DNA of 64,000 bases from Planobispora longispora. Lineage in GTDB: Bacteria > Actinomycetota > Actinomycetes > Streptosporangiales > Streptosporangiaceae. Within the stretch, counting starts at the first letter, position 1. The number at the start of each line of letters is the position of its first letter. Location of the stretch: NCBI RefSeq assembly GCF_016863135.1, contig NZ_BOOH01000048.1, positions 62,001 to 126,000 on the forward strand. The letters are read 5' to 3'. This document shows, piece after piece, positions 4,884 to 64,000 of this stretch. Under the pieces are notes generated by a model. It saw only the letters and a program-made list of their open reading frames with translations. It was not told the origin of the DNA and did no database searches. A program made the position numbers and the translations under genes.

Positions 4884-4999
4884 GTTCTAAGGCTGAGAGC
4901 GGGTACGGCGACGCGTATCGATCGGTGAACCCACCCGTGCAGCGCGTCCGTGGTGGGCCGGGTGTTGCCCGCCCGGGCTGCGCCTCACGGGAGATGAGC

Positions 5000-5025
5000 C
5001 CGGCCGGGTCGTCCACCCCGGCCGG
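5000..5025. terminator. Hairpin between convergent MerR and GH62 genes
   Basis: Arms CCGGCCGGG and CCCGGCCGG with an 8-nt loop, located between two convergent gene ends. No U-tract. Confidence 0.4.
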
Positions 5026-12779: not shown

Positions 12780-12787
12780 GACGTGGG

Positions 12788-12860
12788 TGGAGCTATGGGG
12801 ATTCGAACCCCAGACCTCTTCCATGCCATGGAAGCGCGCTACCAACTGCGCCATAGCCCC
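12788..12860 (-). tRNA. tRNA-Ala(GGC)
   Basis: A 73-nt cloverleaf on the minus strand. Acceptor GGGGCTA pairs with TAGCTCC (one G-U), discriminator A. The anticodon stem CTTCC/GGAAG encloses loop ATGGCAT with anticodon GGC, and the T-arm contains GGTTCGAATCC. CCA is not encoded. An identical gene lies at 60541-60613. Confidence 0.97.
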
Positions 12861-48920: not shown

Positions 48921-50042
48921 TCAGCCCCAGACCTCCCGGGCGGTCTCGGCGATGAGGGCCAGTTTGGCGAACTGCTCCTCCTCACCGAGCACGTTGCCCT
49001 CGACCGTGGAGGAGAAGCCGCACTGCGGCGACAGGCACAGCCGGTCGCCGTCGACGAACTTGGCCGCCTCCTCGATGCGGCGCTTGAGGGCGTCCTTGGA
49101 CTCCAGCGCGCCGCTCTTGGTGGTGACCAGCCCGAGCACCACCGTCTTGCCGGGCGGGACGAAGCGCAGCGGCTCGAACCCGCCGGACCGCTCGTCGTCG
49201 TACTCCAGGAAGAAGCCGTCCACGGCCAGCTCGCCGAAGAGCGCCTCGGCGACGAAGTCGTAGCCGCCCGCCGCGGCCCAGGAGGACCGGAAGTTGCCCC
49301 GGCACATGTGGGTGGTGACCGTCATGCCCTCCGGCCTGGCGGCCAGCGCGGCGTTGATCTGCTTGATGTACCGCAGGTGCAGGTGCTCGGCGTCGTCGCC
49401 GCGCGCGGCGATCCCGGCCCGCTGCGCGGGGTCGTTGAGGTAGGCCAGGCTGGTGTCGTCGAACTGCAGGTAGGCGCAGCCCAGCTCGCCGATCCGGCGG
49501 ACCTGCTCGGCGTAGGCGGCGCTGAGGTCCGTCCAGAACTCCTCGACGTCGGGATAGACGCCGGGGTCGATCGAGGCGGGGCCGCCGCGGTAGTGGACCA
49601 TGCTGGGCGAGGGGATGGTCAGCTTGGGGGTGGCCGTGGTGACCGTGTCGCGCAGGAAGGCGAAGTCGTCGGCGAAGATCGTCTCGTCGAGCCGGATCCG
49701 GTCGTGGACCCGCAGCGCGGCGGAGGTGAACTCGAGCCCTCCCCGCGCGTTGACGAACTTCACGGCGATGCGCTCGTCGGGGTTCGGGGCGACGCCGCCC
49801 AGCCGGTAGATGAAGTCCATGTGCCAGGACGCGCGGCGGAACTCGCCGTCGGTGGCCGACCGCAGGCCGATCTCCTCCTGCCTGCGCACCGCCTCGCGGA
49901 TCGCCTCGTCCTCGATCTCGCGCAGCCGTCCGGCGGGGAGCCTCCCGGCGGCGTGGTCGTCCCGGGCCCGCAGCAGCCGCTCCGGGCGCAGCAGGCTGCC
50001 GACGTGGTCGGCGCGGAAGGGGGGTCTGGTACGCATCTGCAT
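48921..50042 (-). CDS. MetE-like cobalamin-independent methyltransferase (YxjG/YxjH type)
   Basis: 373 residues: a single MetE C-terminal-type barrel. Landmarks are FRADHVGSLLRPERLL, ATDGEFRRASWHMDF, and zinc ligands in VTTHMCRGNFRSSW and SPQCGFSSTVEGN. Members transfer methyl groups to a thiol; some are B12-independent methionine synthases lacking the N-terminal domain. The start at 50042 has GGAG 5 nt upstream, and that ribosome-binding segment sits in a 17-nt tandem duplication. It lies 68 nt downstream of the acyl-CoA ligase gene on the same strand. Confidence 0.87.
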   Translation of the reverse strand: MQMRTRPPFRADHVGSLLRPERLLRARDDHAAGRLPAGRLREIEDEAIREAVRRQEEIGLRSATDGEFRRASWHMDFIYRLGGVAPNPDERIAVKFVNARGGLEFTSAALRVHDRIRLDETIFADDFAFLRDTVTTATPKLTIPSPSMVHYRGGPASIDPGVYPDVEEFWTDLSAAYAEQVRRIGELGCAYLQFDDTSLAYLNDPAQRAGIAARGDDAEHLHLRYIKQINAALAARPEGMTVTTHMCRGNFRSSWAAAGGYDFVAEALFGELAVDGFFLEYDDERSGGFEPLRFVPPGKTVVLGLVTTKSGALESKDALKRRIEEAAKFVDGDRLCLSPQCGFSSTVEGNVLGEEEQFAKLALIAETAREVWG

Positions 50043-50043
50043 C

Positions 50044-50077
50044 ACTTCTCCCACATCGGAACTTCTCCCACATCGGA
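50044..50077 (-). repeat. 17-nt tandem duplication carrying the ribosome-binding site
   Basis: Plus-strand unit ACTTCTCCCACATCGGA repeated exactly twice. On the minus strand each unit supplies GGGAGAAG; the nearer one is the functional Shine-Dalgarno of the MetE-like gene. Confidence 0.85.
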
Positions 50078-50110
50078 CGGCCGCGGTCGCGACGGGCCCG
50101 CCGAAGGCGA

Positions 50111-51589
50111 TCACGGTGCTCCGTACACCGTTCTGAGCTGTCCCTTCAGCACCTTGCCCGCGGCGTTCCTGGGTAATTGGGGGACGAATTCCACATATTT
50201 CGGGATCTTGAAGCGGGCCAGCCGGCCGTCCAGGTAGGCCAGCAGGTCGGCGTGCTCGATCTTCACCTCCGGGCGCAGGACGACCAGGGCCTTGCCGACC
50301 TCGCCCCACGTGCCGTCGGGCACGCCGATCACCGCGCACTCCGCCACCGCCGGGTGCCCGTACAGCGCGCCCTCCACCTCGGCGGGGTAGACGTTCTCCC
50401 CGCCAGAGATGATCATGTCGTCGATCCGGTCGGAGATGCGGACGTACCCGTCGTCGTCGGCGACGCCGACGTCGCCCGAGCGGAACCAGCCGTCGTCCGA
50501 CAGCGCCTTCGCGGTCTCCTCGGGACGGCGCCAGTAGCCCGGCGTCACGTTCGGCCCCTGCACGTGGACCTCCCCCGGCTCCCCCGGGGCCGCGGGCGCG
50601 CCGTCGGGCCTCACCAGCCGCACGTCGGAGAAGAAGCACGGCACGCCGGCCGTGCCGGCCTTGGCGACGGAGTGCTCGGCCCCCAGGAACAGCGCTCCCG
50701 GCGACGTCTCGGTCATCCCGTACCCCTGCAGGAACGTCAGGCCGCGCTCCTGGTAGATCCTGATCAGCGGCTCGGGGACCGGCGCTCCCCCGCACAGCAG
50801 GTAGCGCAGGCTGGACAGGTCGGCCCCGGGCCAGCGCGGGGACTGGGCGAGGAAGGTGAACATCGCCGGGACGCCGAACATGACCGTGACCCGCTCCGAC
50901 TCGATCAGGTCGAAGGTCCGCCCCACGTCGAAGGCCGGCTCCAGCACGGCCGTGCCGCCCTTGAGCACGGTGGGGATCAACGTCTGGGCCAGCGCGGCGA
51001 TGTGGAAGAGCGGGGCGCTGATCAGGGTGACCTCGTCGTGCGCCAGCGGGACGTCGACCAGCAGATTGAAGGTGTTCCACGTGAGGTTGGCGTGGGTCAG
51101 CATCGCGCCCTTGGGGCGGCCCGTGGTGCCCGAGGTGTACATGATCAGGCACACCTCGTCCCGGTCCACGGGCTCGTCGATCGGGGCGGGGTCGCCCGCC
51201 GCCGCCAGCTCCCCGTGGTCGGCCGGCCGGGCGGAGAGACCCGCGGCGAGCTCCGCGTGCTCGGCCCCCGCCAGGAGGACGGCGGCCCCGGCGTCCCGCA
51301 GGATGTAGTCGAGCTCCGGTACGGCCAGGCGGGTGTTGAGCGGCACGAACACCGCGCCCAGCGTCCCGGCCGCGAAGAAGGTCTCCACCAGCGCCGGATG
51401 GTTCGCCCCGAGGTACGCGACGCGGTCGCCGCGCCGTACGCCCAGATCGCGCAGGGCCGAGGCGAGCCGGTTCACCCCCGCGTGCAGCTCCCGGTAGGTC
51501 GTCCGGCCGCCGCGATGGCTCAGCGCCGTCCGGTCCGGCGTCATCCTCGCCCTGCGCGCCGGCCACGAGCCGAGTCCCTGATTGCGCAT
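50111..51589 (-). CDS. AMP-forming acyl-CoA ligase
   Basis: 492 residues of the ANL superfamily: A3 motif MYTSGTTGRPKGAML, A5 QGYGMTETSPG, A7 GWFRSGDVG, A8 ISDRIDDMIISGGENVYPAE and the A10 lysine in PRNAAGKVLKGQL. It activates a carboxylic acid as acyl-AMP and then acyl-CoA; the chain length is undecidable. A MetE-like gene follows and a fragment of a PaaX-family regulator lies just upstream on the same strand, consistent with an aromatic or fatty-acid catabolic setting. Confidence 0.93.
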   Translation of the reverse strand: MRNQGLGSWPARRARMTPDRTALSHRGGRTTYRELHAGVNRLASALRDLGVRRGDRVAYLGANHPALVETFFAAGTLGAVFVPLNTRLAVPELDYILRDAGAAVLLAGAEHAELAAGLSARPADHGELAAAGDPAPIDEPVDRDEVCLIMYTSGTTGRPKGAMLTHANLTWNTFNLLVDVPLAHDEVTLISAPLFHIAALAQTLIPTVLKGGTAVLEPAFDVGRTFDLIESERVTVMFGVPAMFTFLAQSPRWPGADLSSLRYLLCGGAPVPEPLIRIYQERGLTFLQGYGMTETSPGALFLGAEHSVAKAGTAGVPCFFSDVRLVRPDGAPAAPGEPGEVHVQGPNVTPGYWRRPEETAKALSDDGWFRSGDVGVADDDGYVRISDRIDDMIISGGENVYPAEVEGALYGHPAVAECAVIGVPDGTWGEVGKALVVLRPEVKIEHADLLAYLDGRLARFKIPKYVEFVPQLPRNAAGKVLKGQLRTVYGAP

Positions 51590-51626
51590 CGGCGCTCCTC
51601 GACGGACGAGTCATCCCGCCCTCAAG

Positions 51627-51890
51627 TTAGGCCAATGTCTCACCGCTGTCACCATTGTGCCGAACATTGTCCGGGACGACGTCGAGCAGACCGGCCACGA
51701 CCTCCGCGGCCCCCGGGCGGAACCGCTCGTGCAGGGCGTGGCACACCCGCTGCGCCTTCTCGGCGGGCCAGCCGCGCGGAAGGTGGCGGACGGGCAGCCG
51801 CGGATCGGTCCTGATGATCCGCAACCACTCGGTGAGCATGGGCAGCGAGCGGGCCAGGTCGCACGCCTGGATCCGGTGGAGAAAGCGGCC
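51627..51890 (-). pseudogene. C-terminal remnant of a PaaX-family regulator
   Basis: An open frame without N-terminal domain reads LARSLPMLTEWLRIIRTDPR, LPVRHLPRGWPAEKAQ and CHALHERFRPGAAE, ending near 51627. This is the PaaX C-terminal pattern (short helix, DPxLPxxxLPxxWP, then LHxRxxP). The winged-helix N-terminus and central domain are absent upstream. PaaX represses phenylacetate catabolism in other bacteria. A small downstream ATG (51839) opens a 70-codon frame, but no independent function is likely. Confidence 0.55.
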
Positions 51891-51952: not shown

Positions 51953-52906
51953 GTGAATGCCATGAACGGTTCAGCCATTGCGGCCTCGGGGCTGCGGAAG
52001 GCCTACAAAGACAAGCCCGTGCTCGACGGCATCGATCTGGACGTCCGGACCGGCACGATCTTCGCCCTCCTCGGGCCGAACGGCGCCGGCAAGACCACGA
52101 CGGTGAACGTGCTGACCACGCTGCTGACGCCGGACGCCGGGAAGGTGCTCGTCGCCGGGCACGACGTGGTCACGGAGGCCAAGGCGGTGCGCGCGGCGAT
52201 CGGCGTCACCGGGCAGTTCGCCTCGGTGGACAACCTGCTCACCGGCAGGGAGAACCTGCTGATGATGGCGGATCTCCTGCACCTGCCCAAGACGGAGGGC
52301 CGGCGGATCACCGACCGGCTGCTCGACCGGTTCGACCTGGTCGAGGCGGCGGGCAAGCCGGCGGCGTCCTACTCCGGCGGCATGCGCCGCAAGCTGGACC
52401 TCGCCATGACGCTGGTCGGCGGTCCGCAGATCATCTTCCTGGACGAGCCCACGACGGGACTCGATCCACGCAGCCGCCGCACCATGTGGGAGATCATCCG
52501 GGACCTGGTCGCCGACGGCGCGACCATCTTCCTCACCACCCAGTATCTGGAGGAGGCCGACCAGCTCGCCGACCGCATCGCCGTACTCGATCAGGGACGG
52601 CTGGTCGCCGAGGGCACCGCCGGCGAGCTCAAGCGCCGGATTCCCGGCAGCCATGTCCGGCTCCGGTTCACCAGCCGGCCCGAACTCGACGCCGCGGCGC
52701 GAGTCCTGCACGAGTCCACCGAGGACGGCGATGAACTGACCTTGCGGGTACCCGGCGACGGCGGGGTGAAGTCACTTCGCGCGCTGCTCGATCGGCTCGA
52801 CGCGCACTCCGTCGAAGTCGAGGAACTGTCGGTGCACACACCGGACCTGGATGACGTCTTCCTCGCGCTCACCGGTCACGGAAACAAGGAGGTCAACGCA
52901 CGATGA
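51953..52906 (+). CDS. ABC exporter ATPase (DrrA-like), second set
   Basis: 317 residues from GTG 51953 (ATG 51962 possible). Walker A LGPNGAGKTTTVNVLTTLL, signature YSGGMRRKLDLAMTL, Walker B IIFLDEPTTGLDP, and a DrrA C-terminus (LDDVFLALTGHGNKEV). Its base composition is slightly less GC-rich than its neighbours. It overlaps the permease gene by 4 nt. It differs from the 24-kb set in being adjacent to an AfsR-like regulator instead of a TetR. Confidence 0.93.
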   Translation: MNAMNGSAIAASGLRKAYKDKPVLDGIDLDVRTGTIFALLGPNGAGKTTTVNVLTTLLTPDAGKVLVAGHDVVTEAKAVRAAIGVTGQFASVDNLLTGRENLLMMADLLHLPKTEGRRITDRLLDRFDLVEAAGKPAASYSGGMRRKLDLAMTLVGGPQIIFLDEPTTGLDPRSRRTMWEIIRDLVADGATIFLTTQYLEEADQLADRIAVLDQGRLVAEGTAGELKRRIPGSHVRLRFTSRPELDAAARVLHESTEDGDELTLRVPGDGGVKSLRALLDRLDAHSVEVEELSVHTPDLDDVFLALTGHGNKEVNAR

Positions 52907-53664
52907 ACGCCATCTCAGCTTCCCTGACGGATTCCGCGACCATGATGCGGCGCAGCTACCGGCATACGATGCGGAATCCGCTGACGCTGCTCAACGCCAT
53001 CATCATGCCGATCTTCCTGATGTTCCTCATGGTCTATGTGCTCGGCGGCGGATTCAGCGTCGGTACGGACTACGTCGACTACGCGACGCCAGGGTTGATC
53101 ATCATGACCATCGGCTACGGGATCGGCCCCACCGCGACCGGGGTGAACGCCGACATGACGACCGGATTCATCAACCGGCTCCGCGTCATGCACGTGTCCC
53201 GGGCCGCGGTGCTGAACGCGCACGTGGTCGCGACCATGCTCCGGACCCTGGTGGCCATCGCACTCGTCGTCGGGGTCGCGTTCCTGATGGGATTCAGCCC
53301 GTCGGCGGGCTTCCCGGAGTGGCTCGGCGCGATCGGCGTCGTCGTCCTGGCGACACTGGCGATCAGCTGGCTGACCATCGCGGCCGGTCTCGCGGCGAAG
53401 ACACCGGAGAGCGCGGGCATCCTCGGCGTCCCGCTGATGCTCCTCCCCTTCCTGAGCAGCGCGTTCGTGCCGGCCGACAAGATGGGACCGGGCGTGCGGG
53501 AGTTCGCGGAGTACCAGCCGTTCACCCCGATCATCGAGGCCCTGCGCGGGTTCCTGACCGGCACGCCGTCGACGGGCACGACCATCACGGCGATCGCCTG
53601 GTGCGCGGGACTCTCGCTGATCGGCTACCTGTGGGCGCGCAAGTCGTTCACGAAGCGAGCGTGA
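52903..53664 (+). CDS. ABC-2 type exporter permease (DrrB-like), second set
   Basis: 253 residues and six TM helices; NPLTLLNAIIMPIFLMFLMV, TGFINRLRVMHVSRAAVL, QPFTPIIEALRGFLTG are typical of DrrB-like proteins. Its ATG overlaps the ATPase stop (ATGA). Its 3' end overlaps the end of the convergent AfsR-like regulator by 17 nt, so expression of the two may interfere. Confidence 0.92.
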   Translation: MNAISASLTDSATMMRRSYRHTMRNPLTLLNAIIMPIFLMFLMVYVLGGGFSVGTDYVDYATPGLIIMTIGYGIGPTATGVNADMTTGFINRLRVMHVSRAAVLNAHVVATMLRTLVAIALVVGVAFLMGFSPSAGFPEWLGAIGVVVLATLAISWLTIAAGLAAKTPESAGILGVPLMLLPFLSSAFVPADKMGPGVREFAEYQPFTPIIEALRGFLTGTPSTGTTITAIAWCAGLSLIGYLWARKSFTKRA

Positions 53665-56791: not shown

Positions 56792-56817
56792 GCCAGTAAT
56801 TGTGCCGAACCAGGACG

Positions 56818-56861
56818 ACGACTGACGAACCCACTGCTGACGACTGATGAACCCACCGCTG
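56818..56861 (-). promoter_or_regulatory. Two 22-nt direct repeats upstream of the AfsR-like gene
   Basis: ACGACTGACGAACCCACTGCTG is repeated with two changes at 56840. SARP-type proteins bind direct repeats spaced by whole helical turns; 22 nt is two turns. The site is 27-70 nt upstream of the start, so autoregulation is plausible but unproven. Confidence 0.4.
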
Positions 56862-57072
56862 CGGCCCGCGACACACCGCCGCGTCCGTCCCTCCCCACGC
56901 ACCGCGGTTCCCGCGCGGCGTCCCCGGTGGCACCGCATCGCGAGGCGGTTCTCACCAGCCGCTTCCAAGGAGGGCACAAGCCGGCTCGAGCACACTGGCG
57001 AATCGTCGGCCCGTCGCCGTCCGGAGGCGCTCTCGGGTGACAGAGCATCCGCGACGGACAGGAAGGCCCAGG

Positions 57073-57528
57073 ATGACGCTCCGCCAGGCATGGGAGGCCC
57101 CCGAAGCGTCACTGTGCCAGCCGTACTCGATGAATGATCTGGGTCTGCCCATCGAGGAGCTCAACCTCACAGTCCGCACCTACAGCTGTCTCAAACGCGC
57201 GGGCATCAACACCTTCGGCGAGCTGACCGCCCGCGAAGAGCGGCGCATACTGGCGATCAAGGGCGTCGAAACCGAGACTCTCGAGGAGATCGAGCGGCGG
57301 CTCGCCTCCTTCGACCTGACGTTGAAAGCCACCTGGGAAAGCTCGATGCGGGATCCCGTCCACTCCATCGATCACCTTCCGGCGCGACCGGTCTCCGCGG
57401 TGGCCTTCCACCCGGACGGCCGCCTGCTGGCCACCGCCGGCGCGGACGGCACGGCACGCCTGTGGAACATTGGCGACAACGTTCACGATGCGCCCGCGGA
57501 ACACGTGACCCCCGCATCCGATCGGTGA
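57073..57528 (+). CDS. RNA polymerase alpha-CTD-like domain fused to a single WD40 repeat
   Basis: 151 residues from ATG 57073 (GGAAGG 6 nt upstream; in-frame GTG 57037 would add 12). Residues 26-84 match the RpoA C-terminal domain: PIEELNLTVRTYSCLKRAGI, NTFGELTAREERRILAIKG, EEIERRLASFDLTL. The DNA-contact set is only partly kept: Arg35 and Cys39 match R265 and C269, but N268 is Ser and G296/K298 align with Glu. Residues 106-132 form one WD40 repeat (VAFHPDGRLLATAGADGTAR, LWN), far too few for a propeller. Either a truncated WD40 protein or a small stand-alone alpha-CTD adaptor. No operon partner is clear. Confidence 0.8.
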   Translation: MTLRQAWEAPEASLCQPYSMNDLGLPIEELNLTVRTYSCLKRAGINTFGELTAREERRILAIKGVETETLEEIERRLASFDLTLKATWESSMRDPVHSIDHLPARPVSAVAFHPDGRLLATAGADGTARLWNIGDNVHDAPAEHVTPASDR

Positions 57529-57630
57529 GCACCGGGCAGGTCGCGAGTGCGAGAGATGCCGGGCCGTACAGCACGCGTGCTCACAGGGTGACCAGGAGAG
57601 TCAGACGGCCGCGACGTCCGGCAAAACGAC

Positions 57631-57667
57631 GAGATCCCGTCCGATCACTCCGAGCGGACGGGATCTC
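57631..57667. repeat. Dispersed hairpin repeat, copy B
   Basis: Arms GAGATCCCGTCCG and CGGACGGGATCTC with an 11-nt loop. Pairing extends outwards (AAACGACGAG with CTCGCCGTTT, one mismatch). It lies between the alpha-CTD/WD40 gene and the LRR fragment. Confidence 0.75.
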
Positions 57668-57688
57668 GCCGTTTCCCCGGATGGCGGC

Positions 57689-58079
57689 GTGACCGTCGGC
57701 AGGCTCTTCCGATTGGCCGCTCTGCTGGCCGCGGCTCTGGCCGCACCGGATGCGATCACCGAGGTGGATCTGTCCGGCGAACGCCTGCACCGCCTCCCCG
57801 AAGCGCCCGGCACGTTGACCGGCCTCGTCCGGCTCACCCTGCAAGACACCCCGCTGACCGGCCTGGACGGGATCGGCGGCGCCCATCGTCTGCAGTGGCT
57901 GTCGATCAGGAAGACCCCGGTGGAGTCGCTGGCACCGCTGCTGACCCTGCCGCATCTGACCTACCTGGATGTGTCCTACTGCGCCGGTGTGACGGACTGG
58001 CCGATCCTGGCCGATCTGCCCGGACTGCAGACGGCGGTGGCGCACGGCTGCCGGTTGCCGGATCAGCTCCGCCGCGGAA
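57689..58079 (+). pseudogene. Leucine-rich-repeat protein fragment
   Basis: From GTG 57689 the frame encodes about four LRRs: ITEVDLSGERLHRLPEAPG, LVRLTLQDTPLTGLDGIGG, LQWLSIRKTPVESLAPLLT, LTYLDVSYCAGVTDWPILAD. After about residue 130 the frame runs antisense into the next gene and loses the LRR pattern, with no proper stop. It is probably the broken end of a longer LRR or NACHT-LRR-type protein. No ribosome-binding site is convincing, and hairpin copy B sits 22 nt upstream. Confidence 0.5.
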
Positions 58080-58171
58080 GATCGATCTCAGCGAGTTCGG
58101 GGGCGAACGCCGCCGGCTCCTGGTCGCGGCCGTTCCTGAGACGGCTTGCAGGTGGACGCGGTGATCACGGT

Positions 58172-59119
58172 TCAGGACGAACCGATCGGCTCCAACGGAG
58201 TCGGTGTGACCTCCAGCACCACCGTCCGGCCGCTGTGCGCCCGCGCCTCCCACACGAGCCAGTCCTGTCCGACGGCATCGGCGGAGACGGGCTCGTACGA
58301 CAGGTGGAATGCCTGCCTCGACTTCCCGTCGAGGAAGTTGACCGTGGGGGCGTCCGGGTCGGCCCTCACCCGCCGGTAGACCACGTCCAGACCGCGTTCG
58401 CGTACGTCGGCGAGCACCTGGGCCACAGTGCGACCGCTGACGGTTACGCCTTCCAGCGCCTCGCCCTCCGCGGTGGCGGCGGCACCCGTCTGGTACGGCT
58501 CGCCCGGCCGGGCCGGGCGGCCCAACTGGGCCCGCACTTCCCCGGTGAACCCGACGGGGATGCGGAAGGCCAGGTGGCAGCCGAGCGCACCGGGCGTGCA
58601 TCCCTCGGGCTCGACGCCGGCGCTGAACTCACCGGCCGGCCCGGAAGGGCCGGGGGCACCGGGGTGGAACATGGGCACGACGGGCTGCCCGACCAGGCTG
58701 GGGGAGGCCGGCACCAGTTCCAGGGTGACGTCCAGCCCCAAGGACTCGAAGCCCTCGCGGTACCTCTCGTGCTCGGCCAACGGATCCTTGATCCGGGCCA
58801 CCCAGTTCCCTCCCTCCTGGACGATGTCGATGGCGGCGCTGGCGTAGGACTTCGCGCCGGCGGCGCCACCCGGGACGAGGCTCGGACCGAGCACGGCGGC
58901 CATCACGGCCCCTACCAGGACCGCGGCGCCGGCCGCCACCCGCCACGCCGTTCCCGCGCGCATGGTGCCGATCAGCCCGGGGAGCCGCCGCCGGACTCCC
59001 CGAGGGGTTCGCGCGATGTGTCGGGTGGGCGGCTCCCACCCGACGGCCCGGGCCAGCTCGTCGGGGTCGCGCAGGGGGATCCGGGACCTCATCTTCTCCA
59101 GCACTTCGAGTTCATTCAT
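58172..59119 (-). CDS. Membrane-anchored partner of the ECF sigma factor (anti-sigma or CU044_5270-like)
   Basis: 315 residues. The cytoplasmic N-terminus (MNELEVLEKMRSRIPLRDPD, ELARAVG) is followed by one TM helix at about 59-82 (AWRVAAGAAVLVGAVMAAVL) and a long extracellular domain of about 230 residues that I do not recognise. The start overlaps the end of the sigma-factor gene by 8 nt, so the two are co-translated. Topology and coupling suggest it restrains the sigma factor or passes an envelope signal to it. No ZAS zinc motif is visible. Confidence 0.75.
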   Translation of the reverse strand: MNELEVLEKMRSRIPLRDPDELARAVGWEPPTRHIARTPRGVRRRLPGLIGTMRAGTAWRVAAGAAVLVGAVMAAVLGPSLVPGGAAGAKSYASAAIDIVQEGGNWVARIKDPLAEHERYREGFESLGLDVTLELVPASPSLVGQPVVPMFHPGAPGPSGPAGEFSAGVEPEGCTPGALGCHLAFRIPVGFTGEVRAQLGRPARPGEPYQTGAAATAEGEALEGVTVSGRTVAQVLADVRERGLDVVYRRVRADPDAPTVNFLDGKSRQAFHLSYEPVSADAVGQDWLVWEARAHSGRTVVLEVTPTPLEPIGSS

Positions 59120-59702
59120 CTGCGGGGTCTCCCATGGATCTGCGGATCTTGGTCCGGGCTCGGTTGACCCGTGAGCGCACGGTGCCCACGGGGAGGCCCA
59201 GGACGTCGGCGACCTGCTGGTAGGTCAGCTCACCCCAGGCGGTCAGGAGAAGAACGTCGCGGTCCTCCTTGCGCAGGCCCGCCAGGGCGGCTGACAAACG
59301 GACGGTCTCCGCAGCGGCCGTGACGCGGTCGGCGACCACGTCGGCGTGGCCCTCCAGCACCGGGTCGACGCCGGTACGGGCTAGCGCCCGGTAGAACCGG
59401 GTCTCCGATCTGTGGTGGCGGCGGATCAGGTTGGTGGTTATCCGCCACAGCCAGGCTCGCACGTCGCCCCGGGTGGAGTCGTATCCTTCCCGGCCGCGGA
59501 AGGCCTGGTGGAACGTCTCCGCCACGATGTCGTCGGCGAGGTCGCCGCCGAGGCGGCGGGCCGCGTACCGGTGCAGCGGTGGAGCGTGCCGCCGGAACAG
59601 CTCACCGAAGCAGCGGGGGTCGTTCAGGGACGCAGCGACCAATGATGCGTCGTCCCGTTCCTGGTAGGTCGCATCAAGGGGGGCCATGTACGCCTTTCTC
59701 AT
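59112..59702 (-). CDS. ECF RNA polymerase sigma factor
   Basis: 196 residues from ATG 59702 (a GGGGGTGA stretch upstream); ATG 59687 also has a usable site. Region 2: CFGELFRRHAPPLHRYAARR, DIVAETFHQAFRGR. Region 4: AALAGLRKEDRDVLLLTAWG, ELTYQQVADVLGLPVGTVRS, RVNRARTKIRR. It directs transcription of an unknown regulon, with the overlapping membrane protein as likely signal partner. Its promoter region has been invaded by an IS30 remnant whose end lies 6 nt from the start. Confidence 0.92.
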   Translation of the reverse strand: MRKAYMAPLDATYQERDDASLVAASLNDPRCFGELFRRHAPPLHRYAARRLGGDLADDIVAETFHQAFRGREGYDSTRGDVRAWLWRITTNLIRRHHRSETRFYRALARTGVDPVLEGHADVVADRVTAAAETVRLSAALAGLRKEDRDVLLLTAWGELTYQQVADVLGLPVGTVRSRVNRARTKIRRSMGDPADE

Positions 59703-59708
59703 CGGATG

Positions 59709-60331
59709 TCACCCCCTACTAGCCCGAAACCGGGTGAGGAGTTCCAACCGCGCGGCATCGTGATCGCCGAACACGTCGTGGTGGGTCGAGGGGGCGTGCT
59801 CCTCGATCGGCCGTGCCCCGGTGATCTGGGAACGCCACTGGCCCTTGACCGTGTTCTTCTTGCTCTTGCCGATGGGACGGCCCGTACGCAGCTTGGTGCG
59901 CAGCTCACGCGGGATCAGCTTCCACCGGGTCGTGTAGATCACGCGGTAGATGCTCTCGTGGCTGATCCGCATGAGCGGGTTGCCGGCGTGCATCAGCCGT
60001 AGATGCCCCACGATCTGCTCCGGGGACCATTCGTTGCCGAGCAGTTCGATCACCAGCCGGCGCAGCACCGGATTGTCCTGCAGCGCCGACGGTTTCGGGC
60101 GACGTACCTGCTGTTGAGCGCGTTACTCGGCGGCGACCGCACGGTATTCGCTCGGCCGGCGCGATGCCGCCATGGTGCTTCAGCACCGTGAAAACCGACC
60201 CCGGGGGGCTTGCCCAGTGCCCGGGAGATCATGCTGATGGAGTCACCGGCGCGCCACCGCCGACACAAGTCCTCTTTCATCGCGTCCGACATTCCCGGCG
60301 GACCCATCCGAGCCACGATCCACTCATCCAC
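59709..60331 (-). mobile_element. IS30-family transposase remnant
   Basis: An N-terminal HTH (MSDAMKEDLCRRWRAGDSIS, MISRALGKPPG) shifts frame and is followed by a degraded middle and then EWSPEQIVGHLRLMHAGNPL, MRISHESIYRVIY and ELRTKLRTGRPIGKSKKNTV. This is the order in IS30-type transposases. The reading frame ends in unrelated codons before the DDE catalytic core. At least one frameshift and a 3' deletion make it inactive. Terminal inverted repeats are not evident. Confidence 0.85.
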
Positions 60332-60540
60332 CAGCAGCGTTGCGTTGATCGTCTGAAGCTAAGCGTGCTGCGCCCGCAGTGACCGCACACCGCCGGCGCC
60401 CTTCTCCACGGCCGCCGCACCCGCTCGCAAGAGCCCGCCGACGGTCACACCATCCGGAGAAACGACGAGATCCCGTCCGATCGAGGCGATCGGCGGGATC
60501 TCGTCAACGTGCTTCAGACCATTTCAAGAACGGCCCGCTG
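60332..60540. other. Intergenic stretch between IS30 remnant and tRNA-Ala
   Basis: No supportable gene. It contains hairpin copy C and then the conserved flank TCAACGTGCTTCAG that resembles the flank of copy A. The rest has no recognised content. Confidence 0.5.
60467..60502. repeat. Dispersed hairpin repeat, copy C
   Basis: Left arm GAGATCCCGTCCGATCG, loop AGG, right arm CGATCGGCGGGATCTC, which lacks one A compared with copy A. It lies 38 nt from the tRNA 3' end, between it and the IS30 remnant. Confidence 0.75.
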
Positions 60541-60613
60541 TGGAGCTATGGGGATTCGAACCCCAGACCTCTTCCATGCCATGGAAGCGCGCTACCAACT
60601 GCGCCATAGCCCC
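60541..60613 (-). tRNA. tRNA-Ala(GGC), second identical copy
   Basis: All 73 nt are identical to the gene at 12788-12860, in the same orientation; anticodon GGC in loop ATGGCAT. No CCA is encoded. Flanking sequences differ. Confidence 0.97.
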
Positions 60614-60747
60614 TTGCGGTGGGTGACGCGCCCTCTGCGGAGCGCGGCACTGGGAAAATCCTAGCCGACTCCGAGCCCGTCTCGCGCCATCGATCCCGTG
60701 CCCGGCCGGTGCGGGGTGAGATGCCGGAGATTCCCGTTCCGGGACTG

Positions 60748-60775
60748 TGTCACGCCGAAGGGTCCGTGATACGTC
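60748..60775 (+). promoter_or_regulatory. ECF41-type promoter of the sigma factor gene
   Basis: TGTCACG (60748-60754), 17 nt, CGTC (60772-60775), then 9 nt to the ATG. The same motif pair and spacing precede the downstream gene. Reported ECF41 promoters have TGTCAC-like and CGTC-like elements. Indicates autoregulation and a leaderless transcript. Confidence 0.7.
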
Positions 60776-60784
60776 TCTTCTTCT

Positions 60785-61672
60785 ATGACCGTCGAGCGCT
60801 TCGAGGAACACCGTGATCTGCTGACCGGGGTCGCCTACCGGATCCTGGGCAGCGCCGCCGATGCCGAGGACGTCGTGCAGGAGGCGTGGCTGCGCTGGTC
60901 GGGTGTGGACGCCGACGCCGTCGAGAACGACCGGGCCTACCTGATCAGGGTGACCACGCGGCTGTCCGTCGACCGGTTGCGGCGGATCGGGGCCCGGCGG
61001 GAGTCGTACGTCGGGGAGTGGCTGCCCGAGCCGGTCGCCACGACCCTCGGTGTGGACGATCGGGTCGAGCTGACCACGTCGGTGGAGCTGGCGCTGCTGG
61101 TGGTCCTGGAGACGCTGTCCCCGCTGGAGCGGGCGGTGTTCGTGCTGCGGGAGGCGTTCGGCCTGCCGTACGCGGAGATCGGCGAGGCGATCGGGCGCGG
61201 CGAGGCGGCCGCCCGGCAGCTCGGCCGCCGGGCCAAGCGGCATGTCGAGGAGCGGCGTCCCCGCTTCGACGTGGACCGGGCCCGGCGCCGTGAGATCACC
61301 GAGCGCTTCGTCGGCGCCGCCGCGGGCGGGGACCTGGAGGGGCTCATCTCGATGCTCGCCGCCGACGCCACCCTGGTGGGCGACGGCGGCGGGAAGGCCA
61401 AGGCCCCGCTGCGGACCGTCGCCGGCGCCCGGAAGGTCGCGCGCCTGCTCGTCTCGATCGCGAGCGAGGCGGGCGCCCAGCGGTTCCTGGACTCCATCGG
61501 CGTCGCGGCGGCCGACGGCATCGCCGTGGAGTTCCCCGAGGTCAACGGCGCTCCGGCAGCCGTGGTGACCGCCGGCGGACGGCCGATCACGCTGTTCTCC
61601 CTGGTCATCAGCGACGGGCTGATCGAGACGATCTACCTCGTCTCCAATCCGGAGAAACTCGCCCGCCTCTGA
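60785..61672 (+). CDS. sigJ: ECF41-type (SigJ-like) RNA polymerase sigma factor
   Basis: 295 residues. Sigma region 2 (LTGVAYRILGSAADAEDVVQ, EAWLRW) and region 4 (LETLSPLERAVFVLREAFGL, PYAEIGEAIGR) are followed by a C-terminal SnoaL/NTF2-like domain (about 170-290; EITERFVGAAAGGDLEGLIS, LLADATLVGDGGG-type). This fused domain replaces a separate anti-sigma factor and modulates activity in the ECF41 group. No anti-sigma gene is adjacent. The flavoprotein gene downstream has the same promoter motif, as expected since ECF41 regulons are usually the neighbouring enzyme gene. Confidence 0.92.
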   Translation: MTVERFEEHRDLLTGVAYRILGSAADAEDVVQEAWLRWSGVDADAVENDRAYLIRVTTRLSVDRLRRIGARRESYVGEWLPEPVATTLGVDDRVELTTSVELALLVVLETLSPLERAVFVLREAFGLPYAEIGEAIGRGEAAARQLGRRAKRHVEERRPRFDVDRARRREITERFVGAAAGGDLEGLISMLAADATLVGDGGGKAKAPLRTVAGARKVARLLVSIASEAGAQRFLDSIGVAAADGIAVEFPEVNGAPAAVVTAGGRPITLFSLVISDGLIETIYLVSNPEKLARL

Positions 61673-61683
61673 TCGCGAAACGA

Positions 61684-61711
61684 TGTCACGAATGTCTCCG
61701 CCGGCTGCGTC
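61684..61711 (+). promoter_or_regulatory. ECF41-type promoter of the flavoprotein gene
   Basis: TGTCACG (61684-61690), 17 nt, CGTC (61708-61711), then 8 nt to the ATG at 61720. The layout is identical to that at 60748, marking the flavoprotein as the predicted target of the adjacent sigma factor. Confidence 0.75.
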
Positions 61712-61719
61712 GTGGGGGC

Positions 61720-62883
61720 ATGAGACGAGAAATCACCATCATCGGTGGCGGCCTCGCCGGGCTGACCGCGGCCATCGCGTGCGCCGAGGGCGGCGCCGCC
61801 GTCACCCTCCACGAGGCCCACCGGGCACTGGGCGGGCGGGCCCGCTCGTCCGCCGCGCCGTACATCGCCAATGACGGCACGCACGTCTTCTACTCCGACG
61901 GCGGGCCGTGGCGCTGGATGGCGGCCCGGAAGCTGGTCCAGCCGTTCCGCAAGCCGACGCTCGGCGAGATCGCGCGGGCCCGGTTCCGGTACGGCGGCCG
62001 CCTGACCCTGACCCCTCCCTGGTCGCTGGTGAACGCGCTCACCAAGCGGAAGACGGTGGCCCCGGTGGACCGGGACTTCCGGAGCTGGGCCACGGAGCGG
62101 TTCGGCGCGGAGGCGATGCGGGCGGCCTGCGGGCTCGTCGGCGTCATCACCTACGACGCCGACCCCGGACGGCTGTCGGCCGCGTTCGTCTGGGAGCGGG
62201 CGCTGCGGGCGAGCTCGCCGCAGTACCCGGCCCCGCGCTACGTCGTCGGCGGCTGGCAGAAGGTGGTCGACCGGATGGCCGGCCACGCCCGCGGGCTCGG
62301 CGTGCGGATCGAGACCGGCGCGCGGGTGGACCGCCTGCCGGAGGACACCCCCGTGATCGTCGCGACCTCGCTGGACGCGGCCAGGACCCTGCTGGGCGAC
62401 GAGTCCCTGCGCTGGGAGAGCGGCCGGGCGGTCCTGCTCGACCTCGGACTCACCCGGAGCCCGAAGGACGTGTTCATCGCCTCGGACCTGGACGAGGGCG
62501 GGTTCGTCGAGCAGTACAGCCTGGCCGACCGCACCCTCGCCCCCGCCGGGCACACGCTCGCGCAGCTGGAGATGCCGCTGCGGGCGGGTGAGACGAAGGC
62601 CGAGGGGCTCGCCCGGCTGGAGCGCCTGGCCGATCTCGCACTGCCCGGCCGGCGGGAGCGCACCACCTGGCGGCGGGAGGCCGTGTCCAACGGCCGCAGC
62701 GGCGCCCTGGACCTGCCCGGTTTCTCCTGGCGGGACCGCCCGGCGATCGACCGGGGCGACGGCGTCTGGCTGGCCGGTGACGCGGTCGCGGCCCCCGGCA
62801 TGCTCAGCGAGGTCTCCACGCACAGCGCCCTGGCCGCGGCGCGGGCGGCGCTGCGCGCCGTCGGCTCGCCGGTGGCGGCCTGA
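61720..62883 (+). CDS. FAD-dependent oxidoreductase (amine oxidase/phytoene-desaturase-like)
   Basis: 387 residues. N-terminal dinucleotide-binding motif ITIIGGGLAGLTAAIACAEG, the following HEAHRALGGRARSSAAPYIA, and a C-terminal GDGVWLAGDAVAAPGMLSEV typical of flavin amine oxidase-like enzymes. The substrate is unknown. It is preceded by an ECF41-type promoter and is the likely regulon of the sigma factor 47 nt upstream. The stop lies in a 26-nt imperfect tandem duplication. Confidence 0.88.
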   Translation: MRREITIIGGGLAGLTAAIACAEGGAAVTLHEAHRALGGRARSSAAPYIANDGTHVFYSDGGPWRWMAARKLVQPFRKPTLGEIARARFRYGGRLTLTPPWSLVNALTKRKTVAPVDRDFRSWATERFGAEAMRAACGLVGVITYDADPGRLSAAFVWERALRASSPQYPAPRYVVGGWQKVVDRMAGHARGLGVRIETGARVDRLPEDTPVIVATSLDAARTLLGDESLRWESGRAVLLDLGLTRSPKDVFIASDLDEGGFVEQYSLADRTLAPAGHTLAQLEMPLRAGETKAEGLARLERLADLALPGRRERTTWRREAVSNGRSGALDLPGFSWRDRPAIDRGDGVWLAGDAVAAPGMLSEVSTHSALAAARAALRAVGSPVAA

Positions 62884-62916
62884 CCCTCCCCTCACCGGTG
62901 GCGGCCCGCCCTCCTC
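62865..62916 (+). repeat. 26-nt imperfect tandem duplication spanning the flavoprotein stop
   Basis: Unit CTCGCCGGTGGCGGCCTGAC... is repeated at 62891 as CTCACCGGTGGCGGCCCGCC... The first unit contains the TGA; in the second the same position reads CGC. Confidence 0.75.
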
Positions 62917-62931
62917 TCCCGGGCGCGCGGG

Positions 62932-63777
62932 TCAGGGCGGGGAGACGGTGGTGATCATGGTCAGCTCGGAGCCGTCCGCCGACAGCTCCAGGGTGACGGC
63001 GGCCGCGCCGAGCTCGGAGGTGCGGGACAGGTGGGTGCCCCCGCAGGGGATGGTCACCTCGCCCTCGGGCAGGCCGCAGTGCCAGGCGCGGCGCGCGGTC
63101 AGCTCGGCTCCCGGACTGTCGATCCGGACCGGGGCGTCGGCCGCGATCCACTCCTTGAGCCGGTCCCCGGCCCGCCGGGCGATCTCGGGGAGGTCCTCGG
63201 CCAGGCCGTCGGCGGTGAAGCCCTTGCGGCGCAGGGACTTGCCCAGCCGGTAGACGTCGCGGCTGCCGTACGGCTCGATCCGCGAGGAGGTGATGGCGGT
63301 CCGGTCGAAGTCGGGGCTGCCCAGCCCGTCGGCGGGCGCCTCCTTGCGCCAGCGGTCGGCCAGCGCGGAGTTGAGCGCGAGGGCGGCCAGGTGGCAGGCG
63401 GTGTGCCCGGCCGACAGGGCGCGGCGGCGCCCGGCGTCCACCACCAGATCGACCTCCCCCTCCAGGGGCGCGCCGGTGATGTGGACGACGAGCCAGCTCC
63501 AGCCGGGCTCGCCCCGGCGGACCGGGATGTCCGCGCCGAGGTGGACGGTCTCCTCGCCGTCCCGCACGGCCCCGGTGACGCAGTCGGCGACCGCGGCCCC
63601 GCCGATCGTGCCGGTGTCGGCGGGCTGGTCCGGCCAGGTGTGGTCGAGGGGGTGGAACGGGGTCTCGGCGACGATCACTCCGTACCGGTCCCCCACCGGC
63701 ACGACCCCCACGACGGCCGAGCGCCCTCCGGTCTCCCCCGCGGGATAGGTGACCAGCGTCGATGTCTCGATCTTCAT
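62932..63777 (-). CDS. AlaX-like alanyl-tRNA editing protein
   Basis: 281 residues resembling the editing domain of alanyl-tRNA synthetase and free-standing AlaX. Landmarks are TPFHPLDHTWPDQPADTGTI (glycine-motif/barrel), GHTACHLAALALNSAL with the HxxxH zinc ligands, and PCGGTHLSRTSEL with the Cys and His that complete the metal site. It probably deacylates mischarged Ser- or Gly-tRNA(Ala). Two tRNA-Ala genes lie in this window, the nearer 2.3 kb away. Confidence 0.8.
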   Translation of the reverse strand: MKIETSTLVTYPAGETGGRSAVVGVVPVGDRYGVIVAETPFHPLDHTWPDQPADTGTIGGAAVADCVTGAVRDGEETVHLGADIPVRRGEPGWSWLVVHITGAPLEGEVDLVVDAGRRRALSAGHTACHLAALALNSALADRWRKEAPADGLGSPDFDRTAITSSRIEPYGSRDVYRLGKSLRRKGFTADGLAEDLPEIARRAGDRLKEWIAADAPVRIDSPGAELTARRAWHCGLPEGEVTIPCGGTHLSRTSELGAAAVTLELSADGSELTMITTVSPP

Positions 63778-63834
63778 CTGCCCATCCTCTCAGCACGGTC
63801 CTCGCCCGACGCCGCTGCGGCCTTCCCCGACGCC

Positions 63835-63875
63835 GGTACGGCCTGCGTCGCCCCCGAGGAGACGCAGGCCGTACC
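63835..63875. terminator. 15-bp hairpin after the partial membrane-protein gene
   Basis: Arms GGTACGGCCTGCGTC and GACGCAGGCCGTACC with an 11-nt loop, 30 nt past the stop of the minus-strand gene at the window end. Confidence 0.7.
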
Positions 63876-63904
63876 ACCGCACGGGTGTGCCGCTCCGGCG
63901 GACG

Positions 63905-64000
63905 TCAGCGGGACGGCGCCCGCTCGTCCTCCAGGTAGCGGGCGCGGCCGGCGTACAGGCCGACGGCCAGCTGCACCGCGACCACCGCGAACAGCAGTAG
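63905..64000 (-). CDS. C-terminal end of a membrane protein (truncated by window)
   Basis: The last 31 codons read LLLFAVVAVQLAVGLYAG, a TM helix, then RARYLEDERAPSR and a stop at 63905. The rest lies beyond the window. The family cannot be assigned. Confidence 0.6.
   Translation of the reverse strand, partial: LLLFAVVAVQLAVGLYAGRARYLEDERAPSR

Follow-up and report, generated by a model that had tools for sequence, protein, structure and literature searches.

Results

The Locus and Its Gene

The window, a 64,000-nucleotide stretch of contig NZ_BOOH01000048.1 from the soil actinobacterium Planobispora longispora, contains a small open reading frame that joins a domain resembling the C-terminal domain of the RNA polymerase alpha subunit (alpha-CTD) to one WD40 blade and a tail (table 1). 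Both domains named in the initial annotation were recovered by Pfam above the cut-offs, RNA_pol_A_CTD at 60.8 bits against 23.8 and WD40 at 38 bits against 27, the latter as a single stretch. A Pfam search of the 151-residue protein for an alpha-NTD gave no match, and the NCBIfam RpoA models align with it by their C-terminal ends only, scoring no more than 59.5 bits where the cut-offs are at least 227.8.

Table 1. Coordinates of the gene and its parts in the window.
Feature	Position	Strand	Evidence
ORF of 151 aa (alpha-CTD-like domain, single WD40 blade, tail)	57073..57528	+	ATG start
Alpha-CTD-like domain, residues 22-78	57136..57306	+	PF03118, E 1e-16; alignment with RpoA of the same genome
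WD40 blade (only one), residues 96-132, at the blade-1 place of the seven-bladed relative	57358..57468	+	PF00400, E 2e-9; continuous match with P. takensis head and blade 1
Tail with stop codon, corresponding to what follows blade 7 in P. takensis	57469..57528	+	
5' leader, homologous to the P. takensis and P. venezuelensis leaders	56950..57072	+	blastn; alignment
Site of absent 17-nt leader element (present in 5/6 aligned relatives)	57059..57060	+	
Likely ribosome-binding site AGGAAGG	57060..57066	+	sequence; identical letters in 4/6 relatives, one-letter variants in 2/6

A promoter and terminator scan of 56800-57750 found none. A palindrome at 57630-57668 (CGAGATCCCGTCCG...CGGACGGGATCTCG), absent from the list of that terminator scan, resembles a stretch beside a tRNA-Ala gene in another genome of the genus (G001). 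Farther downstream lies a fragment of an LRR protein (57689-58165, forward strand; PF12799, E 1.7e-7), which is probably a pseudogene because its coding sequence may carry on in a different frame (ORF 57895-58164, without a Pfam match). The reverse strand of 58172-60068 holds an ECF sigma factor gene recognized by Pfam (59112-59702), an ORF with no Pfam match that overlaps it and may encode an anti-sigma partner (58172-59119), and a fragment that we take to resemble an IS30-type transposase (59709-60068).

Residues of the Alpha-CTD-Like Domain

Residues 21-86 of the window protein are 53% identical to the protein that we read as RpoA in the same genome. The initial annotation held that DNA-contact residues had been partly replaced by acidic ones, and the alignment bears this out: the loop RNFGAKS of RpoA is KGVETET in the window protein. 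Using Escherichia coli residue numbers, the equivalents of G296 and K298 are both Glu, that of S299 is Thr and that of N268 is Ser, while R265 and C269 are retained; G296, K298 and S299, the DNA-contact residues of the second hairpin, are all replaced. Across the seven aligned family members, the K298 equivalent is absent from all seven, the G296 equivalent is present in one (Streptosporangium amethystogenes) and the R265 equivalent in every one, so the loop replacements are not peculiar to the window protein. The segment LPIEELNLTVR, within the part richest in invariant residues, is the same in the window protein and in RpoA of the same genome.

The alpha-CTD-like domain is used as a module in other proteins too, because it weakly matches positions 797-860 of the NCBIfam BREX PglW model (E 9e-6), because two relatives (L041 and L042) carry such a domain between an apparent SRPBCC/CoxG domain and a hydrophobic stretch at the C-terminus, and because a 200-aa frame in another (L044) shows two alpha-CTD-like stretches by eye.

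A Family of Alpha-CTD–WD40 Proteins

Relatives were sought in four sets, comprising 60 relatives, 341 family-level genomes, 394 class-level genomes and a collection of genome contigs. A full head, consisting of alpha-CTD, linker and first blade, was found with profile A2 in 7 of the 341 family-level genomes, including the window's own, at E values of 5e-71 to 1e-64; the next best match in that set, at 3.3e-28, begins a series limited to the alpha-CTD. The rows of profile A2 are these same seven heads, and the score of the window protein (E 1e-70) is therefore high by construction. Among the 394 class-level genomes, which are a sample, full heads occur only in G000, G003 and G235; the idea that the architecture is widespread was dropped, as none of these genomes outside the family had one. 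Among the best 80 of 262 relatives in the contig search, the first four alone span residues 1-130. The other 76, whose matches cover approximately residues 20-85, were classed as RpoA-like, in 10 cases on reading the translation.

The initial annotation proposed a search for longer homologues with the same domain order, and these exist. The P. takensis protein (G003; NZ_BOOK01000016.1, L059:6001-7209) has 403 aa and seven Pfam blades, as do those of S. amethystogenes (G329; 434 aa, seven blades) and S. carneum (G333; 396 aa, seven blades) in blade number, and two further Streptosporangium genomes encode proteins of 349 aa with five blades (G339) and 313 aa with four (G330). These are Pfam stretches, and counts of LW motifs are higher where blades are mangled (9 against 7 in G329, 7 against 5 in G339 and 5 against 4 in G330). 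The Planomonospora venezuelensis protein (G235; L060:6001-6444) has 148 aa and one Pfam blade. An eighth genome, G001, which belongs to the window's genus, has a relative made up of one blade and the tail without an alpha-CTD, and profile searches found no family member in G002, a genome of the same genus that is 92% complete. Five of the seven other members therefore have four to seven Pfam blades, P. venezuelensis is as short as the window protein and G001 is shorter. The initial annotation had named as its refutation that all close homologues be long and the window copy alone truncated; most of them are long, but not all.

A description of an alpha-CTD fused to WD40 repeats was not found in the openly licensed literature searched, and the available part of a systematic survey of WD40 proteins in prokaryotes does not mention one (PMC5587647). 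The parent family, an alpha-CTD fused to a seven-bladed propeller, thus appears to be undescribed, a new combination of known parts.

Predicted Structures

AlphaFold2 gave no confident fold for the window protein (pLDDT 50.2, pTM 0.33; 26 aligned sequences) and a confident one for its seven-bladed P. takensis relative (pLDDT 81.6, pTM 0.73; 4 aligned sequences); predictions from such shallow alignments are weak negative evidence. The P. takensis model has helices in the alpha-CTD followed by propeller strands, and its best match in the PDB is the PkwA propeller 5YZV (TM 0.96 on the target, rmsd 1.2, 41% identity). By analogy with PkwA, a strand predicted at residues 97-100, ahead of blade 1, would close the last blade.

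WD40 beta-propellers have four to twelve blades, nearly always in a single chain, according to the abstract of one paper (PMC6805158), and the window protein has one blade by Pfam. Section 6 of the same paper reports that single-blade WD40 constructs, a permuted one among them and with PkwA as one of the parents, failed to fold; the abstract states that blocks of one to six blades yield oligomers, a wording at odds with section 6. For a different type of propeller, assembly of short motifs has been reported (PMC4735018).

Anatomy of the Blade Loss

At the protein level, the window sequence follows P. takensis through the head (75% identity over residues 1-135) and blade 1, and then continues with the residues that follow blade 7. 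The DNA match starts at 56950 in the leader and extends across blade 1 as far as 57468; the interval 57398-57528 additionally matches the end of blade 7, the tail and the stop codon. The comparison shows an in-frame loss of six blades that brought blade 1 directly against the tail of the seven-bladed form. The initial suggestion that the protein is the surviving head of a larger WD40 protein was right as to the head and can be refined, since the original tail also survives, with six blades gone from between. The crossover has no exact position, as some blade bases are nearer to blade 7 and the tail codon GGC is common to blade 1 and P. venezuelensis. Taken alone, the blade core barely favors blade 1 (nucleotide identity 0.86 to P. 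takensis blade 1, 0.84 to its blade 6 and likewise 0.86 to blade 4 of two Streptosporangium proteins), and it is the unbroken match with the head that supports the blade-1 assignment. In G001 the tail directly follows the blade as it does in the window, whereas the P. venezuelensis junction differs.

P. takensis and Streptosporangium have their blades in the same order (for example, GWDYGVRLWEV...RLIALFTGHT), so the many-bladed state is the older one, and two independent losses, one in the lineage of the window and G001 and one in P. venezuelensis, are the simplest history. A maximum likelihood tree of the seven heads places P. takensis with P. venezuelensis and the window outside (bootstraps 77/100 for nucleotides and 82/100 for protein); G001, having no alpha-CTD, was left out of this tree and of the pN/pS comparison below. 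P. takensis and P. venezuelensis also differ from the window at two codons (AGAAGG or AGGAGG against GAAGAG), which the aligner renders as a compensated 1/1 gap pair. A single loss followed by regain of blades in P. takensis is a less simple alternative, for which the lower pS of blades 2-4 (see Discussion) leaves some room.

Selection on the Head and the Leader

The pN/pS ratio of the head is 0.85 between the window and P. takensis and 0.84 between the window and P. venezuelensis, values that lie inside a neutral simulation (medians 0.95-1.12), are compatible with neutrality and have wide bootstrap ranges (0.51-1.59 and 0.54-1.31). For the alpha-CTD (residues 22-86), the ratios are 1.03 and 1.05, respectively. 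Head ratios elsewhere are 0.54-0.87 among the four Streptosporangium members, 0.70 between P. takensis and P. venezuelensis, 0.78-0.93 between P. takensis and Streptosporangium, and 0.85-1.03 between the window and Streptosporangium. The family as a whole thus evolves fast, and the window gene stands no more than at the high end of it. Head dN/dS values are 0.82 (window and P. takensis) and 0.88 (window and P. venezuelensis), and the G001 blade gives 0.69 against the window. Controls run with the same code gave 0.04 and 0.11 for RpoA, 0.51, 0.53 and 0.45 for a regulator, 0.26 (over 81 aa only) and 0.21 for an ABC ATPase, 0.40 for a SigJ-like protein and 0.23 for an FAD protein. An ABC permease at 52903-53664 (forward strand) has high NG86 dN/dS values of 1.08 against G002 and 0.57 against G003.

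When P. takensis is compared with two Streptosporangium species, pN is 0.14-0.16 in blades 2-4, 0.22-0.23 in blade 1, 0.26-0.30 in blades 5-7 and 0.32-0.33 in the alpha-CTD and linker. The blades missing from the window gene thus include the most constrained stretch of the family.

In the 132-codon head, alignment to P. takensis or P. venezuelensis revealed no uncompensated frameshift; within the coding sequence the gaps comprise 3 nt and a compensated 1/1 pair for the former, and the 1/1 pair for the latter. Leader gaps, in comparison, would break a frame (1 and 17 nt against P. takensis; 1, 5, 1, 2, 2 and 2 nt against P. venezuelensis), a pattern suggestive of selection on the ORF, whether earlier or ongoing. 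A stop was gained in 53-71% of the neutral simulation runs, so the lack of stops alone is weak evidence for retention.

A 17-nt element (GAGAG...) ahead of the ribosome-binding site is found in five of the six aligned relatives and is absent from the window; G330 is the relative in which it is not clearly present. The possibility that the leader is a multicopy mobile end or a shared promoter was dropped, since G000, G003 and G235 each gave a single strong match. Among the candidates scored, at most 40 per genome, there was no strong one in G001, G002 or G234, the remaining pieces being short, with E values of 0.002 or worse.

Genomic Context

The window gene and the G001 remnant have common flanks, downstream at 60431-63997 (85% identity) and more distantly upstream at 49505-51667 (92%), and the DNA between the upstream flank and the gene differs between the two genomes. 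Similarly, G329 and G339 have approximately 1.9 kb of downstream DNA in common. The P. takensis gene sits between the equivalents of window positions 4994 and 5018 and the P. venezuelensis gene elsewhere again, and the unit common to the window and these two genomes is the gene with its leader of approximately 120 bp. A neighborhood conserved across genera was considered and dropped, no common neighbors being found; the GNAT gene upstream of the P. takensis gene is not beside the window gene.

Two other candidate associations were abandoned. A functional link with the neighboring ECF sigma gene did not hold up, as 57540-60431 is unmatched beside the G001 remnant except for a palindromic 82-base piece. 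The same was true of the upstream regulator block, as DNA matching 53.6-56.8 kb is present in G003, G002 and G235 without the gene beside it; in G002 and G003 the matching DNA covers all or part of the ABC genes.

A dispersed repeat of approximately 80 bp (window 4915-5020) has at least 4 matches in the window's genome, itself counted, at least 33 in G003 and at least 55 in G001 (E ≤ 0.01). It lies at the boundary of the P. takensis insertion and downstream of the G001 remnant, and one might speculate that it has a role in gene movement. The window also contains two tRNA-Ala (GGC) genes, at 12786-12860 and 60540-60613; the alpha-CTD–WD40 gene ends approximately 3 kb from one of them, and approximately 4 kb separate the P. 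takensis copy from the equivalent of the second.

Discussion

A Probable Collapsed and Decaying Propeller Gene

We favor the view, at a probability of roughly 0.68, that the window gene is a collapsed and probably decaying copy of an alpha-CTD–seven-bladed WD40 gene. An ancestor would have encoded the alpha-CTD-like domain fused to a seven-bladed propeller, and an in-frame loss of six blades, which the sequence comparison shows, placed blade 1 against the tail. The likely cause is recombination or slippage between similar blade repeats. A gene reduced to one repeat would be locked in that state, as no second copy is left for recombination, which would explain why one-bladed forms have arisen at least twice. 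Without a propeller the protein presumably cannot do the job of the family. The gene has probably begun to decay and may still yield a short alpha-CTD peptide. In G001 the gene is apparently dispensable because the remnant at the same locus has no alpha-CTD. Several points speak against decay. The head is free of uncompensated frameshifts; high substitution ratios are also seen between P. takensis and the Streptosporangium members and in the ABC permease, and are not special to one-bladed genes; and retention could also underlie the one-bladed form seen in another genus.

An alternative is a retained small regulator, in which the alpha-CTD part would act alone after blade loss, for instance as a decoy contacting sigma or activators through its RpoA-like face without binding DNA. 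The identity of LPIEELNLTVR to RpoA of the same genome, alongside a degraded second DNA-contact loop, fits such a role, as does the intact frame of both one-bladed genes that have an alpha-CTD, known from two genera. We nevertheless consider it unlikely, since purifying selection on the alpha-CTD is undetectable, the leader element is absent from the window, the alpha-CTD is gone in G001 and the only common flanks are within genera. The adaptor mimicking alpha-CTD proposed in the initial annotation accordingly gained little positive support, the low-confidence model of the window protein adding to these objections. An extended version, in which propeller loss recurs in a lineage-specific alpha-CTD–WD40 regulator that then persists as a stand-alone decoy that has kept the sigma and activator face of RpoA and lost the DNA-contact loop, is distinctly unlikely; if true, blade loss would convert a sensor-scaffold into a small anti-activator.

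It is very improbable that the single blade is a seed from which the seven-bladed proteins were amplified. New propellers have been reported to arise from single blades (Pereira and Lupas 2022; PMC9218822, available part), and a one-blade seed would likewise resemble a chimera of blades 1 and 7. However, P. takensis and Streptosporangium have individual, nonidentical blades in identical order, and the P. takensis blades are 62-87% identical to one another at the DNA level and so not freshly amplified. Moreover, in the comparison of P. takensis with two Streptosporangium species, blades 5-7 have a pS of 0.36-0.37 against 0.36-0.38 in the alpha-CTD region, the 0.26-0.29 of blades 2-4 leaving some room for later exchange. 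A repeat array collapsed by short-read assembly is scarcely credible, for although repeats with a period of approximately 129 bp are risky for short reads, the longest exact match between any two P. takensis blades (33-codon blocks) is 45 bases, and 15 between blades 1 and 7 (the ancestral array of the window may have differed), and the G235 and G001 assemblies are also one-bladed in different surroundings.

The window gene illustrates how a repeat-propeller gene can drop to one blade in frame, on the simplest history at least twice in related genera. Such leftover ORFs resemble novel small two-domain proteins and can mislead annotation.

Comparison with Known Systems

The window protein resembles the alpha-CTD of RNA polymerase (PF03118) in its domain match, first helix and R265 equivalent, and differs in having no alpha-NTD, no G296 and K298 equivalents and a WD40 blade after the domain. 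Its seven-bladed relative has the PkwA WD40 propeller of Thermomonospora curvata (5YZV) as top structural match, but PkwA is named as a serine/threonine-protein kinase and is not an alpha-CTD protein. With the P. takensis gene the window gene shares its head, a homologous leader, and a corresponding tail and stop, whereas P. takensis has seven blades, a confidently predicted propeller and another genomic place. The P. venezuelensis protein is likewise an alpha-CTD with one blade (67% identity), but its junction keeps more of blade 1 (LWDAGTGG) ahead of the tail and its gene also lies elsewhere. A further comparison is with the disrupted beta-propellers that Pereira and Lupas described (2022; PMC9218822), young propeller genes harmed by deletion. 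In the available part of that paper, removal of blades by in-frame deletion is expected, and the two worked examples are broken by a frameshift or a stop; the window gene, in contrast, was reduced in frame to a single blade.
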